Source: Actinomycetes bacterium
Lineage (GTDB): Bacteria > Actinomycetota > Acidimicrobiia > Acidimicrobiales > Bog-793
DNA: 33,769 bases
Reading direction: 5' to 3'
Assembly (NCBI GenBank): GCA_021803215.1
Contig: JAJZLV010000129.1
Location: 1 to 33,769 of the forward strand
A model generated the notes under the pieces. The model did not search any database, had not been told where the DNA came from, and saw only the letters and a list, made by a program, of their open reading frames with translations. Shown here piece by piece: positions 27,271 through 33,546 of this stretch. The first letter of the stretch is position 1; every line of letters starts with the position of its first letter. Position numbers and translations under genes: made by a program.

Positions 27271-28821
27271 TCAGTGGCCTCCCCTCCCTCGCCCGCCTGG
27301 GCCGTAGCCGTTCCCCGGTCCGCCCCAGCCCTGCCCGTGTCCAGGGCCGTTGCCCGGACCGTGTCCGTGTCCATTGCCCGGACCGTGTCCGTGTCCATTG
27401 CCCGGACCGCCTGGCGGGCCGTTGCCGACCCCCGCGGGGCTGGCAGAAGAGCCCCGCCCCGGCGGGCCGGCGGAGATCGGGCCGGTCGGGCCGAGGCTCG
27501 TGCTGGTCAGCACCACCGGCTCGGAGGTGGTGGCGGAACCGTGGCTGTGCTTCGAGTTGATCGGCTTCGCGCGCCCCGCGGGCTTCTTCGTCCTCCTCGA
27601 GCTCGTCTGCTTCCGCCGGATGACCGGGCTGGCCGTCGCCAGCTGGGCGGTTGCTTGTCGGGAGGTGCTGTCCCTGTCGAGCTCGTTGGCGCCAACCCGA
27701 GGGGTGGCCCTGGCGGCCGGCGGAGAGAACCGGTGCGAGGAGGTGTGACGGGTCGGAATCTTTGAGGTGATCGGCGGGATCAGCTGGGGGAGGGTGGGAT
27801 CGGCCGTCCTCGAGCGGCCGAGAGCTGTCCTCGTGTTGTGGGGTCCCCCGTAGGGGAGAGCCAACCCGACCAGAGACCCGACGAGGATCAGAGCTGCCGC
27901 CATGGCGAAGAGCAATCCGCCGAGCCGCTTCTTTGGCCCAGGGCTCTGCTCGGAAGAGTGGGCCGCCTGGACGGCGGGGGAGGTCCTTCTGGCCGCCCTG
28001 CCGGCGTAGAGGGCGGCATCGGCCCTGGCGAGTAGTAGCTCGGGCTTGCCGAGAGCTTCGGCGCCCAGCTCGGTCAGGCTCGCCACCCCCCAGGAGAACG
28101 CCGGGCCGGGCATCTTCTCGGCCCGGCGGAGCATCGTCTTGGCCCCCTCGGCGTCGGTGAAGGGGAGGAGGACCACGAACTCGTCTCCGCCGATCCTGTA
28201 GAGACGGTCGGCGCCCCTGAGCGCCCCTTGCAAGGTGGCGGCGAGGGCGGTGAGGGCGAGGTCACCCGCTTCGTGGCCCCGCCCGTCGTTTATCTGCTTG
28301 AGGCCGTCGAGGTCGATCATCGCGACCGCGAGGTCGAGACCCGAGCGCCGGGCTGAGGCCAGCTGGCGCTCGAGGTCCTCGTTGAGGGCGAGCCGGTTGG
28401 CACAGCCGGTGAGAGCGTCGGTCCGGGCGGCGGCCTGCAGGTTCGAGGAGGCGGCGTCGACCGCCTCCGCCATCAGCTGGTCGAGGATCCGGTTGTAGCG
28501 CTCTGGAGAGACCGGGAGCCAGGCAGCGGTCCAGCCCGCTTCGGGCTCGGCGGTCGAGCCGACCACGACCTCGCGCAAGGCGGTGAGCGAGGTGATCACC
28601 TCGACGGGCGAGGAGAAGCCGCTGCCCCAGCCCCGGGCCGCCCGCCCGAGCTCGCGGCTGGCGGCGTCGGTGACGAGCGCGCTGGCCAGCGCCGAGAGCA
28701 GGAAGCGAGCCGCGACGCCGGCGCAGTGGCTGGCGTCGGAGCCGGCCCGCAGGCAGCTCTCTGACCAGGCTCTCAGAACCTCGTCGATGCCCTGCTCGGT
28801 CGTCCCGGCTTCCGACCTCAT
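27271..28821 (-). CDS. GGDEF diguanylate cyclase with one TM helix and an external Gly/His-rich tail
   Basis: A 516-residue protein predicted to make c-di-GMP. Residues 1-125 are an unrecognised helical, cytoplasmic domain. The GGDEF domain (about 130-290) has DALTGCANRL, the intact active-site loop GGDEF (211-215) and an RxxD inhibitory site (Arg202, Asp205). One membrane helix (about 302-323) follows. Then comes a ~150-residue Pro/Ser/Thr-rich stretch and a tail (about 470-516) made of repeats of the GNGHGHGP type. Topology puts catalysis inside and the tail outside. The ATG has GTAGGAG just upstream. Enzyme activity is likely; the role of the tail is unknown. Confidence 0.88.
   Translation of the reverse strand: MRSEAGTTEQGIDEVLRAWSESCLRAGSDASHCAGVAARFLLSALASALVTDAASRELGRAARGWGSGFSSPVEVITSLTALREVVVGSTAEPEAGWTAAWLPVSPERYNRILDQLMAEAVDAASSNLQAAARTDALTGCANRLALNEDLERQLASARRSGLDLAVAMIDLDGLKQINDGRGHEAGDLALTALAATLQGALRGADRLYRIGGDEFVVLLPFTDAEGAKTMLRRAEKMPGPAFSWGVASLTELGAEALGKPELLLARADAALYAGRAARRTSPAVQAAHSSEQSPGPKKRLGGLLFAMAAALILVGSLVGLALPYGGPHNTRTALGRSRTADPTLPQLIPPITSKIPTRHTSSHRFSPPAARATPRVGANELDRDSTSRQATAQLATASPVIRRKQTSSRRTKKPAGRAKPINSKHSHGSATTSEPVVLTSTSLGPTGPISAGPPGRGSSASPAGVGNGPPGGPGNGHGHGPGNGHGHGPGNGPGHGQGWGGPGNGYGPGGRGRGGH
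27352..27410 (-). repeat. 24-bp in-frame tandem repeat in the GGDEF gene tail
   Basis: Two perfect 24-nt units (27352-27375 and 27376-27399) and a partial third encode the GPGNGHGH octapeptide repeat. The unit is a multiple of three, so copy-number change would keep the frame. Confidence 0.8.
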
Positions 28822-29142
28822 CTCCTACCACTCCTAGTAGTGAGGCAACCACAAAGCGTCACCAATGCCATTGTGCCACCTCCGAGCCGGAAACGGCGCG
28901 ATTCGCAAGATTTTCTTCTCGGCCCACACCCGGACGAGCGGCCTCCAGCCGTCAAAGCCGGTCTCGAGCGCCCGCCGCCGGCCGACCGCCGGGAGGAGCG
29001 TGACCAAGGCGGACTTTCTCGCTCGTGTCGCCAACTCCCCCCGGCCGCTGCGGCACGAGCGCCCGGCGAGGAGATGGCTCGCTTCTGTACGGCGGGTGGT
29101 CTTGCCTCGCAATCCGGCCCGGGCCAGCCAGCAAGTGCTCTC
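28822..29142. other. Non-coding stretch upstream of the GGDEF gene
   Basis: No convincing gene is seen. A 92-codon minus-strand frame (28834-29112) ends 13 nt before the GGDEF start, but it has no ribosome site and no recognised motif. The part nearest the GGDEF gene is less GC-rich than its surroundings and should hold its promoter, though no clear -35/-10 pair is found. Confidence 0.4.
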
Positions 29143-29260
29143 GCTCAGGAAGCCGAGTGGCCGCTCAGGAAGCCGAGTGGCCGCTCAGGAAGCCGAGTGG
29201 CCGCTCAGGAAGCCGAGTGGCCGCTCAGGAAGCCGAGTGGCCGCTCAGGAAGCCGAGTGG
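29143..29260. repeat. Six-copy 20-bp tandem repeat
   Basis: The unit gctcaggaagccgagtggcc occurs five times in full and a sixth time minus its last two bases, without any mismatch. Each unit can form a small hairpin, CTC-A-GG / CCGAG with an AAG loop and one bulged A. The last unit contains the stop codon of the lipoprotein gene; the others lie in its 3' untranslated region. Twenty is not a multiple of three, which argues against coding use. Confidence 0.92.
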
Positions 29261-30097: not shown

Positions 30098-30234
30098 GCG
30101 ACGACCAGCTCCGGGGCGCCTCGCCTCCGAGTTCGATGACGCTCGGAGGTGGGCTCCGATCTCGAGGTCGCCGTCGCTGCTCTTGAGATGGAGAGCCCAG
30201 CCCTGTGACCGGCGGAGATGTCGAAAAGACGGTG

Positions 30235-30317
<83 letters not shown>

Positions 30318-30373: not shown

Positions 30374-32431
30374 ATGCAGTCGACTGACCGGAGCGAGGCC
30401 GTCCACGGCCCGCTCCGGCCGGGCGAGCTGGCAGAGGCCGCCGTCCTGGCGGACCTCGCCCTTGTCCTAGAGGTGGTCGGATGGTTCGTCCCCTTCGGCG
30501 GGGCGCTGCAGGCGCTCGCCATCCTGCCCTTCGCCGCCCTCTCCTCACGCCATCGCCTGCGAGCCGGCATCGTGGCGGTCGTGAGCGCCGCCTCGGTCGC
30601 CTTCCTCGTCGGGGGAGTGGGCATCGTGCTCCAGACCGGCCTGGCGGGCACGGTCGGACTCTCCATCGGCACCACCTTCCGGCGCAGGTGGTCGGGCGCC
30701 GCCTCGGTCGCCATCACGATGGGTGCCGCCGGGTTGCCTATTGCCGCCGTGACCGACTTCATCGACTGGCTCTCGCCCAACTTCCGACGGCTCACCTTCG
30801 ACCAGGTCCGGATCCTGTGGCGCGACGTGAAGCTCCTCCTCGGCTTGCTCGCCCACCTAGTCCCGACCGGCGGCCTCGTACACCTCGGCCAACAGGTGCT
30901 CGACTGGGTTCTCGGCCACTGGTGGTTCACGATCCCGATCGCCGAGCTGGCCGTCATCCTCGTGGTCGCCCTCGTCTGTTTGAGGATGTGGCCCATCCTG
31001 CGCGCCCTCGGCCAGACGAGCCTGCGTCCCTATGTCGGCGGGTTGCAGGAGCGCGACGAGCCTGAAGTCGCCGTGGCACCGGTACCGGTCTCCCTCGAAG
31101 CGGTCCGCTACGCCTACGAGGGGAGCGAGGTGGACGCCGTCGCCGGCATCGACCTCGACCTCGACCCGGGCGAGCTGCTCGGGCTGGTCGGGCTGAACGG
31201 CTCGGGCAAGTCCACCCTGGTGCGCATCCTCGCCGGCCGGCTCGCCCCGAGCAGCGGGAACGTCCGACGCCCCGGGCGCCCGGGCTACGGCGAGCCGGGC
31301 GGGACTGCCATCATCTTCCAGCGCCCTGAGAGTCAGGTGCTCGGCGTGCGAGTCCGCGACGATCTCCACTGGGGTCTTCCGGCCGGCAGTCGGCCTCCCA
31401 TCGCCGAGCTGCTCGAGACCGTCGGCCTGGCCGGGAGGGAGGACACCGAGACCTCGACTCTGTCAGGCGGCCAGCTGCAGCGACTGGCGGTTGCGGCTGC
31501 CCTGGCCCGTTCTCCCCGCCTGCTCATCTCCGACGAGTCGACCGCCATGGTCGACGCCGACGGCCGGGAGGAGGTGGTAGCCCTCCTCACCCGGCTCCGC
31601 GACGAGGGTCTGGCGGTGGTCCACGTCACGCACCGCCGGGCCGAGACGGCCGTCGCCGACCGGGTGGTCGAGCTGAGCGGCGGCAAGGTGGTGGCGAGCG
31701 GGCCCCCGGCCGCCCGGAGGCCCGAGCCTGTCCGAGAGGAGATCGCCAGCCGGGTCGGCCGGGGCCTCGTCTCCGGCCGCAGGCCGCTTGTGGCGCTCGA
31801 AGGTGTCGGCTACGTCTACTCCGTCGGCACCCCTTGGGCGAAGCGGGCTCTCCTGGGGGTCGACCTCGAGGTCGGAGCGGGCGAAGGTCTCGTCGTGACG
31901 GGGGCGAACGGCTCTGGCAAGACGACCCTTGCCTGGGTGCTGGGCGGCCTCGCCGTCCCGACAGAGGGGTTCGCCCTTCTGGGCGGCCAGCCGATCGAAC
32001 AGGCGCCGACCCGTGTCGGGGTCGCATTCCAGCACGCCCGGCTGCAGCTGCTCCGCCCGAGCGTGATGGCTGACGTCTCTGCCGGCAGCACGAAGGAGGC
32101 GGCCGAGGCCGCCCTGCGCTCTGTCGCCCTCGACCCGCAAGAGATAGGGCCCCGGCGGGTGGACGACCTTTCGGGCGGCGAGCAGCGCCGAGTGGCCCTG
32201 GCGGGCCTGCTTCTTCGCCGGCCGGAGCTGCTCGTCTTGGACGAGCCCTACGCCGGGCTCGACGACGAGGCCCGCTACGCGCTGGCGCTCATACTCTTGG
32301 AGCTCCGCCAGCGCTACCAGATGGCGACCGTCGTGGTCTCCCACGACCTCGACAACGCCGAGCTGCTCGGAGAGCGGATCATCCGCCTGGAAGCCGGCTC
32401 GATCGTCGCCGAGGAGGTGCTCACCCCGTGA
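30374..32431 (+). CDS. ECF-type transporter: membrane domain fused to two ATPase domains
   Basis: A 685-residue protein joining what are usually three subunits. Residues 1-225 carry about six hydrophobic segments and are S-component-like by position. NBD1 has Walker A GLNGSGKST (273-281, Lys279), LSGGQLQRL, Walker B LLISDEST and the His switch VVHVTH. NBD2 has GANGSGKTT (510-518, Lys516), Q-loop VAFQH, LSGGEQRRV, LLVLDEPYAGLD and VVVSHD. Both ATP sites look intact. The ATG at 30374 lacks a clear ribosome site. The stop overlaps the next gene, an EcfT, as GTGA, supporting an ECF importer of vitamin or metal type. The substrate is unknown. Confidence 0.87.
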   Translation: MQSTDRSEAVHGPLRPGELAEAAVLADLALVLEVVGWFVPFGGALQALAILPFAALSSRHRLRAGIVAVVSAASVAFLVGGVGIVLQTGLAGTVGLSIGTTFRRRWSGAASVAITMGAAGLPIAAVTDFIDWLSPNFRRLTFDQVRILWRDVKLLLGLLAHLVPTGGLVHLGQQVLDWVLGHWWFTIPIAELAVILVVALVCLRMWPILRALGQTSLRPYVGGLQERDEPEVAVAPVPVSLEAVRYAYEGSEVDAVAGIDLDLDPGELLGLVGLNGSGKSTLVRILAGRLAPSSGNVRRPGRPGYGEPGGTAIIFQRPESQVLGVRVRDDLHWGLPAGSRPPIAELLETVGLAGREDTETSTLSGGQLQRLAVAAALARSPRLLISDESTAMVDADGREEVVALLTRLRDEGLAVVHVTHRRAETAVADRVVELSGGKVVASGPPAARRPEPVREEIASRVGRGLVSGRRPLVALEGVGYVYSVGTPWAKRALLGVDLEVGAGEGLVVTGANGSGKTTLAWVLGGLAVPTEGFALLGGQPIEQAPTRVGVAFQHARLQLLRPSVMADVSAGSTKEAAEAALRSVALDPQEIGPRRVDDLSGGEQRRVALAGLLLRRPELLVLDEPYAGLDDEARYALALILLELRQRYQMATVVVSHDLDNAELLGERIIRLEAGSIVAEEVLTP

Positions 32432-33243
32432 GCGAAGCGGTCGCCCCGGCCGGACGGCGCCGGCGCCAGCTGGCCGACCTCCACGTCCTCAGGTACGTGC
32501 CGGGAGCGGCCCCGCTCCACCGCGCCTGGGCCGGGACCAAGATCCTCGCCATCGCCCTGCTCTCGATCGGCCTCGTCTTCTTCCCGACGTGGGCCTCGGC
32601 CGGCCTGGCAGCCGCCGCCACGGCGGGCGGCTTCCTGGCCGCCCGCCTCCCGGCCGGCGTCATGCCCCGCGTCCCGCGATGGATCTGGCTCGTCTTGGCC
32701 TTCGGGGCCGTGCTCGCCTTCGTCGCGAGCGGGAAGCCCTATGTCGAGCTGGGCGGGGCCCGGCTCGGCCTCGGCGGCATAGACGAGTGGGCCGAGTTCA
32801 CCCTCATCGGAGTCGAGATACTCGCCCTGGCTGCCCTGCTCGCCTGGACGACGCCGCTCTCGGACCTGGCACCCGCCCTCGGTCGGCTTCTCGCTCCCTT
32901 CCGCCGGCTCGGGCTGCCGGTCGACGACGTCGTCGCCACGATGGCGCTCGGGATCCGCTGCCTGCCGCTCCTCGTCGAGGAGATGAGGGTGCTGGCGGCT
33001 GCCCGACGCACGAGGCGTCCAGAACCTCTTCGGGGTCTGAAGGAGATCGCCGAGGCGGCCGAGGAGCTGTTGTTCACCGCCCTCTCGAGTGCCCTCAGGC
33101 GGGCGAGGGAGCTGGCAGAGGCGATCGAGGGACGGGGCGGAGTGGCGGTGACGCCGCCCGAGACGCACCGGCTCGCAGCGGTCGACGGCTGGATTCTCGG
33201 GCTCAGCGCCGCCTTTCTCGTCGCGATGGTCATCGTCCGGTAG
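32428..33243 (+). CDS. ECF transporter transmembrane component EcfT
   Basis: A 271-residue scaffold protein that couples the ATPases to the substrate-binding component. It has several hydrophobic helices (for example KILAIALLSIGLVFF, WIWLVLAFGAVLAFV and the last helix to the C-terminus). The cytoplasmic coupling helices carry Ala-Arg motifs AAARRTR and AIEGRG, in the place of the two family ARG motifs. The GTG start overlaps the stop of the ATPase fusion gene. Together the two genes could form a complete transporter with no separate S or A genes. Confidence 0.87.
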   Translation: MSEAVAPAGRRRRQLADLHVLRYVPGAAPLHRAWAGTKILAIALLSIGLVFFPTWASAGLAAAATAGGFLAARLPAGVMPRVPRWIWLVLAFGAVLAFVASGKPYVELGGARLGLGGIDEWAEFTLIGVEILALAALLAWTTPLSDLAPALGRLLAPFRRLGLPVDDVVATMALGIRCLPLLVEEMRVLAAARRTRRPEPLRGLKEIAEAAEELLFTALSSALRRARELAEAIEGRGGVAVTPPETHRLAAVDGWILGLSAAFLVAMVIVR

Positions 33244-33261: not shown

Positions 33262-33546
33262 GTGGAGCGCCAGGCGGTCGAGCGAAAGCTGACGGAGGTG
33301 CACGCCCGGCTCGTCAAGGCCCGCCAGGAGCTCTCCATCTTGGAAGAGCAGCTGGGCGTCTTCGCCGAGACGGCCGAGGAGGCCCGCCTGAGAGCCCTCG
33401 TCTCCGAGACTCCCCTGGCCGACCAGGAGTGGCACGAGGCCCGTCGCCACGAAGAGGCGATGCTGCGGAGTCGCGAGAGCGCCCGCCAGCTCGTCTCCCA
33501 GCTAGAGCGGGAGCAGGACGAGCTGCTAACAAGGCTCGTAGTCTGA
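33262..33546 (+). CDS. Small coiled-coil protein
   Basis: A 94-residue, highly charged protein, almost entirely helical (VERKLTEVHARLVKARQELSILEEQL, then a second helix to the C-terminus), probably a two-helix coiled coil. No signal peptide. Start GTG from the TAGGAT box. It lies just upstream of a PdtaR-like regulator gene; similar small coiled-coil proteins occur in actinobacterial genomes, but no function is known to me. Confidence 0.75.
   Translation: MERQAVERKLTEVHARLVKARQELSILEEQLGVFAETAEEARLRALVSETPLADQEWHEARRHEEAMLRSRESARQLVSQLEREQDELLTRLVV

Follow-up and report, generated by a model that had tools for sequence, protein, structure and literature searches.

Contig JAJZLV010000129.1, from a draft genome of an acidimicrobial actinomycete (assembly GCA_021803215.1), carries two overlapping genes for what is very probably a tethered importer of the energy-coupling factor (ECF) type. 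The whole contig of 33,769 bases (henceforth the window) was analyzed; it is a single contig of a 2.64-Mb genome assembly that is ~95.5% complete. The first gene encodes a protein of 685 amino acids (aa) in which an S-component-like membrane domain, a linker and two ATPases, A and A′, follow one another (Table 1): the frame has 0 internal stops. The second gene encodes the T component, EcfT. The two genes overlap in the four bases GTGA, within which the stop of the fusion gene meets the start of ecfT, and a likely ribosome-binding site for ecfT lies 10 bases upstream of its GTG start, still within the coding sequence of the fusion gene, near its 3′-end. A preliminary description of this DNA, made from the sequence alone, had noted a membrane domain ahead of two intact ATPases, and an EcfT gene with a stop-start overlap; both hold. 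With S, A and A′ in a single polypeptide and an overlapping ecfT, the S-like domain is encoded together with its own A and T components, as in group I ECF systems.

Table 1. Features of the locus, with positions in the window; the last row gives related loci under their own labels.
Feature	Position	Strand	Basis
Fused S-A-A′ ECF protein, 685 aa	30374..32431	+	open frame, translation, relatives
S-component-like membrane domain (predicted), residues 16-215, DUF2232-related	30419..31018	+	AlphaFold2 model, VIA-align, Pfam
S-to-A linker, residues 216-238	31019..31087	+	full-length predicted model
First ATPase, EcfA1-like, residues 239-446	31088..31711	+	TIGR04520, PDB sequence match
Second ATPase, EcfA2-like, residues 471-685	31784..32428	+	TIGR04521, PDB sequence match
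GAGGAGG, likely ecfT ribosome-binding site, inside 3′-end of fusion gene	32411..32417	+	sequence reading
EcfT (T component), 271 aa, GTG start	32428..33243	+	PF02361, PDB EcfT match
94-aa open reading frame, 3′ of ecfT	33262..33546	+	conserved beside ecfT in 9 related loci
tRNA-Leu (CAA)	30234-30317	-	ends 56 bases before fusion gene
Split loci of relatives (two Acidimicrobiales, one Actinobacteria)	L044 6977-9875; L045 6989-9719; L046 6998-9572		

The ABC_tran profile matches the fusion in two separate stretches (5.2e-48), and both ATPases carry a Walker A motif (residues 273-280 and 510-517) and an ATP-binding cassette (ABC) signature (starting at residues 363 and 599). Among sequences of the Protein Data Bank (PDB) the best match to the first ATPase is EcfA1 (8bmr_A, 7e-33); for the second it is EcfA2 (4mki_B, 9.6e-31), which stands 10 bits clear. 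The top two NCBIfam models divide the protein in the same way: TIGR04521 (EcfA2-type) has its best stretch at residues 474-680 and TIGR04520 (EcfA1-type) at residues 239-446. EcfT matches CbiQ (PF02361, 5.5e-26) and, among PDB sequences, a solved EcfT chain (4huq_T, 5.1e-13). Since the ATPases are nearest to EcfA1 and EcfA2, and EcfT finds its match, the locus, judged by sequence, encodes an ECF motor whose two ATPases are a distinct A and A′.

The membrane domain that precedes this motor looks like an S component. A model of the N-terminal domain predicted by AlphaFold2 from the studied protein and 17 relatives has a mean predicted local distance difference test score (pLDDT) of 86.3 and a predicted template modelling score (pTM) of 0.74. 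Foldseek placed ThiT (3rlb_B) at rank 17, with an E value of 4.3. When VIA-align was run on 336 of the 338 Foldseek candidates, ranks 1-8 were all ECF S-component chains, as were 12 of the 15 best rows. The best of these was TmRibU (5kbw: Z 10.9, 155 residues, 3.5 angstrom); ThiT (4muu) reached Z 9.3, and FolT (9kym_D) and PanT (4rfs_S), both assigned from entry title, chain and length, ranked below it. The S-component alignments run from residues 1-7 to residues 207-214 of the domain model; the first row that is not an S component has Z 7.5 over 80 residues. Because nearly all of the leading rows come from a single family and their alignments extend over the entire domain, we accept an S-component-like, six-helix fold for the predicted structure. 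This agrees with the preliminary description, which had proposed an S-like N-terminal domain and had named structural unrelatedness to S components as the outcome that would overturn it: the AlphaFold2 fold and the first eight VIA-align ranks point to relatedness. The same comparison made with a full-length model was uninformative on the S domain, the matches being filled by ABC ATPases.

In sequence, the domain falls closest to DUF2232 (PF09991), scoring 27.7 bits on its own and 24.9 bits as part of the full-length protein; the match of the isolated domain covers profile positions 3-101 of 290. All 13 N-terminal domains scanned, the studied protein included, match DUF2232 at E <= 10 (best 7.9e-10). 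A second, weak Pfam match is to Thia_YuaJ, the ThiT family (E 0.12 for the studied protein, 0.057 for the best row). Three rows of G-protein-coupled receptors returned by the N-domain profile from PDB sequences (best E 0.021) were taken as noise.

The distribution of charge between the predicted helices (H1 to H6) fits the N-in/C-in topology of S components: lysine and arginine number 3.06 per row at H2/H3 and 2.72 at H4/H5, the inner turns, and 0.00 at both H1/H2 and H3/H4, which are outer turns. Helix 1 of the studied protein bears an AxxxA docking motif (A22/A26), and a small-xxx-small arrangement is found at this position in 12 of 18 rows. Eight residues are invariant in 37 aligned domains (17 rows of the full-length alignment plus 20 others, with L038, L053/L070 and L068 left out): L14, A20, R63, G81, G95, G99, R138 and W183. 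In the predicted topology one of the inner turns holds R63, whereas R138 and W183 would flank the long outer segment between H5 and H6, predicted to be extracellular. On the model, the likeliest candidate residues for contacting the substrate or gating its passage are Arg138 and Trp183.

Several observations weigh against an S component joined to an ECF motor. General ABC ATPases score close behind EcfA1 for the first ATPase (the best of them that is not an ECF protein, ABCA7, has 114.5 bits versus 117.4), and TIGR04520 and TIGR04521 both remain below their whole-protein cut-offs. The DUF2232 score of the N-terminal domain is just under the curated cut-off of 27.8 bits; the domain profile retrieved no S component from PDB sequences, and Foldseek gave the domain model no match at E <= 0.001. 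VIA-align itself warns that Z below ~13 may reflect a common helical arrangement. The AxxxA motif is weak in the set, its strict form at residues 22/26 being present in 4 of 18 rows, the studied protein among them. Finally, 5.28 K+R and 3.89 D+E per row fall in the long outer H5/H6 segment, a charge that the plain positive-inside rule would not lead one to expect.

Relatives of the fusion recur in the family to which its genome belongs. A second genome of the genus has the protein at 81% identity over residues 5-684, which speaks against a chance frame, and the nearest named relatives are from metagenome assemblies (Actinomycetes, Acidimicrobiaceae, Acidimicrobiales). When 60 genomes were searched with the whole protein, 15 (its own included) showed the N-terminal domain, complete or in part, attached to an ATPase; 14 of these are among the 35 genomes of its own family. 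Searched with the N-terminal domain, genome contigs yielded 17 loci. In 12 the S-A-A′ frame is complete and in two (L038, L039) a contig end truncates it; the other three (L044-L046) encode S-A, A′ and T as separate genes. These two counts share many assemblies and are not independent. A relative of EcfT is located beside all 12 complete fused loci, all three split loci (in L044 and L046 detected by tblastn) and in both named plasmid records, from Mycobacterium ulcerans and Tsukamurella; in L036 and L047 it is cut by the contig end, and the contigs of L038 and L039 stop before it. In a sample of the phylum the N-terminal domain occurs in 18 of 396 genomes, and in 16 of these 18 carriers (its own genome included) it shares a single frame with two ATPases. 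One further carrier, G094, has the domain with a single ATPase, and another, G115, has a weak match for which follow-up gave no matching frame. Family f58 accounts for 14 of the 18 carriers; it is probably Mycobacteriaceae, since the M. ulcerans protein falls among f58 rows in the tree. DUF2232 is found elsewhere in actinobacteria (77 of 396 genomes), mostly in frames of ~330 residues.

A tree of 35 rows, rooted at its midpoint, groups the split loci L045 and L046 with L016, a fused locus on a long branch. Across the root from them, split L044 is the first to diverge (support 91/96). Under this rooting, which may not be the true one, the pattern would fit an order in which S-A formed first and A′ was joined later. 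The S-A frame of G094 (L053, overlapping L070) has 563 residues and matches the N-domain profile twice (13-166 and 206-343); blastp between the two halves gave no match, and the double match may mark an insertion or a half-duplication. Another genome of the family, G010, holds the fusion on C124 and an ordinary ECF set on C174 (3234-6198) consisting of EcfT, a 488-residue A-A′-like frame and a separate PF12822 S protein.

The arrangement already exists in annotated genomes. In M. ulcerans the pair WP_083866473.1 and WP_015356436.1 is likewise a fusion followed by EcfT with a 4-base overlap: a homologous N-terminal domain (4.3e-28) and two ATPases form one chain of 690 aa, which is nested among rows of this family in the tree. 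The neighbors differ: MarR, Lrp/AsnC, ddaH and rocD in M. ulcerans, a tRNA-Leu upstream in the contig studied here. RefSeq names the M. ulcerans fusion for DUF2232, yet DUF2232 is absent among the 25 Pfam matches listed for it. In Tsukamurella tyrosinosolvens, WP_231857426.1 has the same S-A-A′ order and is followed, again with a 4-base overlap, by the EcfT WP_231857425.1; this fusion scores 21.8 bits with DUF2232, sits on a long branch and is annotated only as an ABC transporter ATP-binding protein. The studied locus shares with this mycobacterial type the homologous N-terminal domain, the two ATPases in one chain and the adjacent EcfT, and belongs with it in one actinobacterial family. The statement in the preliminary description that known ECF systems keep S and A separate accordingly goes too far: they are fused, beside EcfT, in M. 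ulcerans and Tsukamurella, and in 16 of the 18 carriers. The M. ulcerans pair is probably the counterpart of Rv2326c/Rv2325c of M. tuberculosis. Rv2325c and Rv2326c are listed in a review as an ECF T component and a nucleotide-binding domain (PMC7761784), and Rv2325c is EcfT-like by structure (PMC8562490).

Better-known systems share parts of this plan. Group II transporters such as ECF-FolT2 of Lactobacillus delbrueckii have EcfA1-, EcfA2- and EcfT-like parts and the S fold in common with it, but their S components are separate and exchangeable (PMC10368641, PMC7755397), whereas the fusion links S to A covalently. YkoEDC, a group I system of the thiamine type, likewise has a dedicated operon and two fused ATPase domains (PMC5037267); its S component, YkoE, is separate, whereas in the studied protein S is fused as well. 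That ECF subunits are 'sometimes fused into multidomain proteins' has been stated (PMC12075633, 2025). The literature searched, which was covered in part, contains no description of an S-A-A′ fusion and no statement that places the S part at the N-terminus of the ATPase protein; absence in print is not thereby shown. The transporter family is one already annotated in a mycobacterium, and its S-A-A′ layout is under-noticed. If the N-terminal domain is read as S-like, the ECF system of mycobacteria also gains a candidate for its S component.

Together the above analyses make it very probable, on sequence and predicted structure, that the locus encodes a tethered-S ECF-type (type III) ABC importer of two proteins, the S-A-A′ chain and EcfT. 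The established scheme for ECF transporters has S take up its substrate on the outside and topple onto EcfT, with release on the inside; the complex is then reset by ATP (PMC4820897, PMC10368641). By analogy with characterized members, the S domain of the fusion would bind a small nutrient outside, topple onto EcfT and then release the nutrient inside; by binding and hydrolyzing ATP, the A-A′ pair would reset the transporter. The tether between S and A has ~23 residues, of which the region of residues 215-227 has pLDDT <50 in the full-length model; by an arithmetic estimate it would reach ~80 angstrom at most when stretched. Tied by such a linker, S could undock and reorient, but could neither diffuse away nor be freely exchanged, and S, A and A′ would be fixed at 1:1:1 per chain. 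In group I systems S may separate less from the motor (PMC10368641), and a tether fits this behavior by analogy. A bolder form of the proposal, which we put forward tentatively, is that throughout an actinobacterial family that includes mycobacteria the ATPase protein supplies the S component as its N-terminal domain, that the cycle runs tethered, with full expulsion of S inessential, and that a single substrate class is contacted by Arg138 and Trp183. By its own account, a single-molecule study of 2025 has not formally shown expulsion of S to be essential (PMC12075633). Since that study leaves the need for expulsion open, the family is useful as a test: in the S-A-A′ fusion, nature would already provide a transporter with its S component tethered.

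Riboswitches, neighboring genes and co-occurrence gave no clue to the substrate of the putative importer, in agreement with the preliminary description, which named none. No riboswitch was found in the window at Rfam gathering thresholds, a tRNA being the sole match. Genes downstream in relatives are the 94-aa open reading frame, an ANTAR response regulator, polA and a frame resembling ribosomal protein S1, with a DtxR-type regulator downstream in four related loci; these neighbors are housekeeping genes and hold no substrate clue. Co-occurrence was counted in 21 family genomes (10 fusion carriers and 11 non-carriers) within the 35 searched, and no association with the fusion was seen for thiC (3/10 carriers versus 4/11 non-carriers; ThiC of the studied genome is cut at a contig edge), for panB (9/10 versus 9/11) or for BioY above its cut-off (5/10, with G010 a sixth below the cut-off, versus 6/11).

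Whether the motor serves its own S domain alone bears on the first alternative to a tethered importer: that the S-like domain is a degenerate anchor and the A-A′-T motor works in trans for a separate S component, for example a lone BioY. The studied genome does hold a BioY (G000:C54:15304-15726, 128.9 bits; L071 6287-6961), and the only EcfT found in it is that of the fusion locus. No match to EcfT or to the ATPases of the fusion at 1e-3 occurs in the 12 kb around BioY. A lone BioY might share the motor, and this counts against a dedicated importer. BioY, however, is also present where EcfT was undetected in 5 of the 21 family genomes (G004, G009, G013, G016 and G017, drafts 92-96% complete), and therefore need not depend on this motor; nor is it associated with the fusion. 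The invariance of Arg138 and Trp183, at the predicted outer face, in all 37 domains argues against a degenerate N-terminal domain. We regard a decayed domain with a motor that serves another S component in trans as improbable. Three other S families (PF12822, PF07155 and PF09819) gave no match in the studied genome. The suggestion in the preliminary description that the importer is dedicated to one substrate is plausible on these grounds: the single EcfT speaks for it and the lone BioY leaves it unproven. A dedicated, group I-like importer is favored, without proof.

Two further alternatives deserve less weight than a decayed anchor. The S-component fold is common to sensor histidine kinases and MreD (PMC11109136), and the complex might accordingly sense, export or act on the envelope instead of importing; but the N-terminal domain shares its chain with ATPases that resemble EcfA1 and EcfA2, with an EcfT relative beside every complete fused locus (12/12), which is the setting of an ECF importer, and a role of this kind seems quite unlikely. 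The fusion was, moreover, read from one contig of 33.8 kb in a draft assembly and might be an artefact of assembly or reading frame. Because relatives in other assemblies carry the same uninterrupted frame (12 complete among the 17 loci, 16 of the 18 carriers in the phylum sample), we give this explanation practically no credence. A tethered ECF importer remains the preferred reading of the locus.

The 94-aa open reading frame that follows ecfT recurs at 54-81% identity in nine loci (L032-L035, L037 and L040-L043); the L034 copy has no Pfam or NCBIfam match at 0.001, and membership of the frame in the transporter system is unproven. The tRNA-Leu (CAA) is also upstream of the fusion in 9 of the 15 genome-contig loci examined. 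Just upstream of the locus, at 29142-29260, is a perfect tandem array of a 20-base unit (5.9 copies, 100% matches). Further upstream, a reverse-strand frame at 27271-28821 has a GGDEF motif and a tail rich in glycine, histidine and proline, and we take it to be diguanylate-cyclase-like; a 24-base tandem array lies within its region, at 27328-27409.

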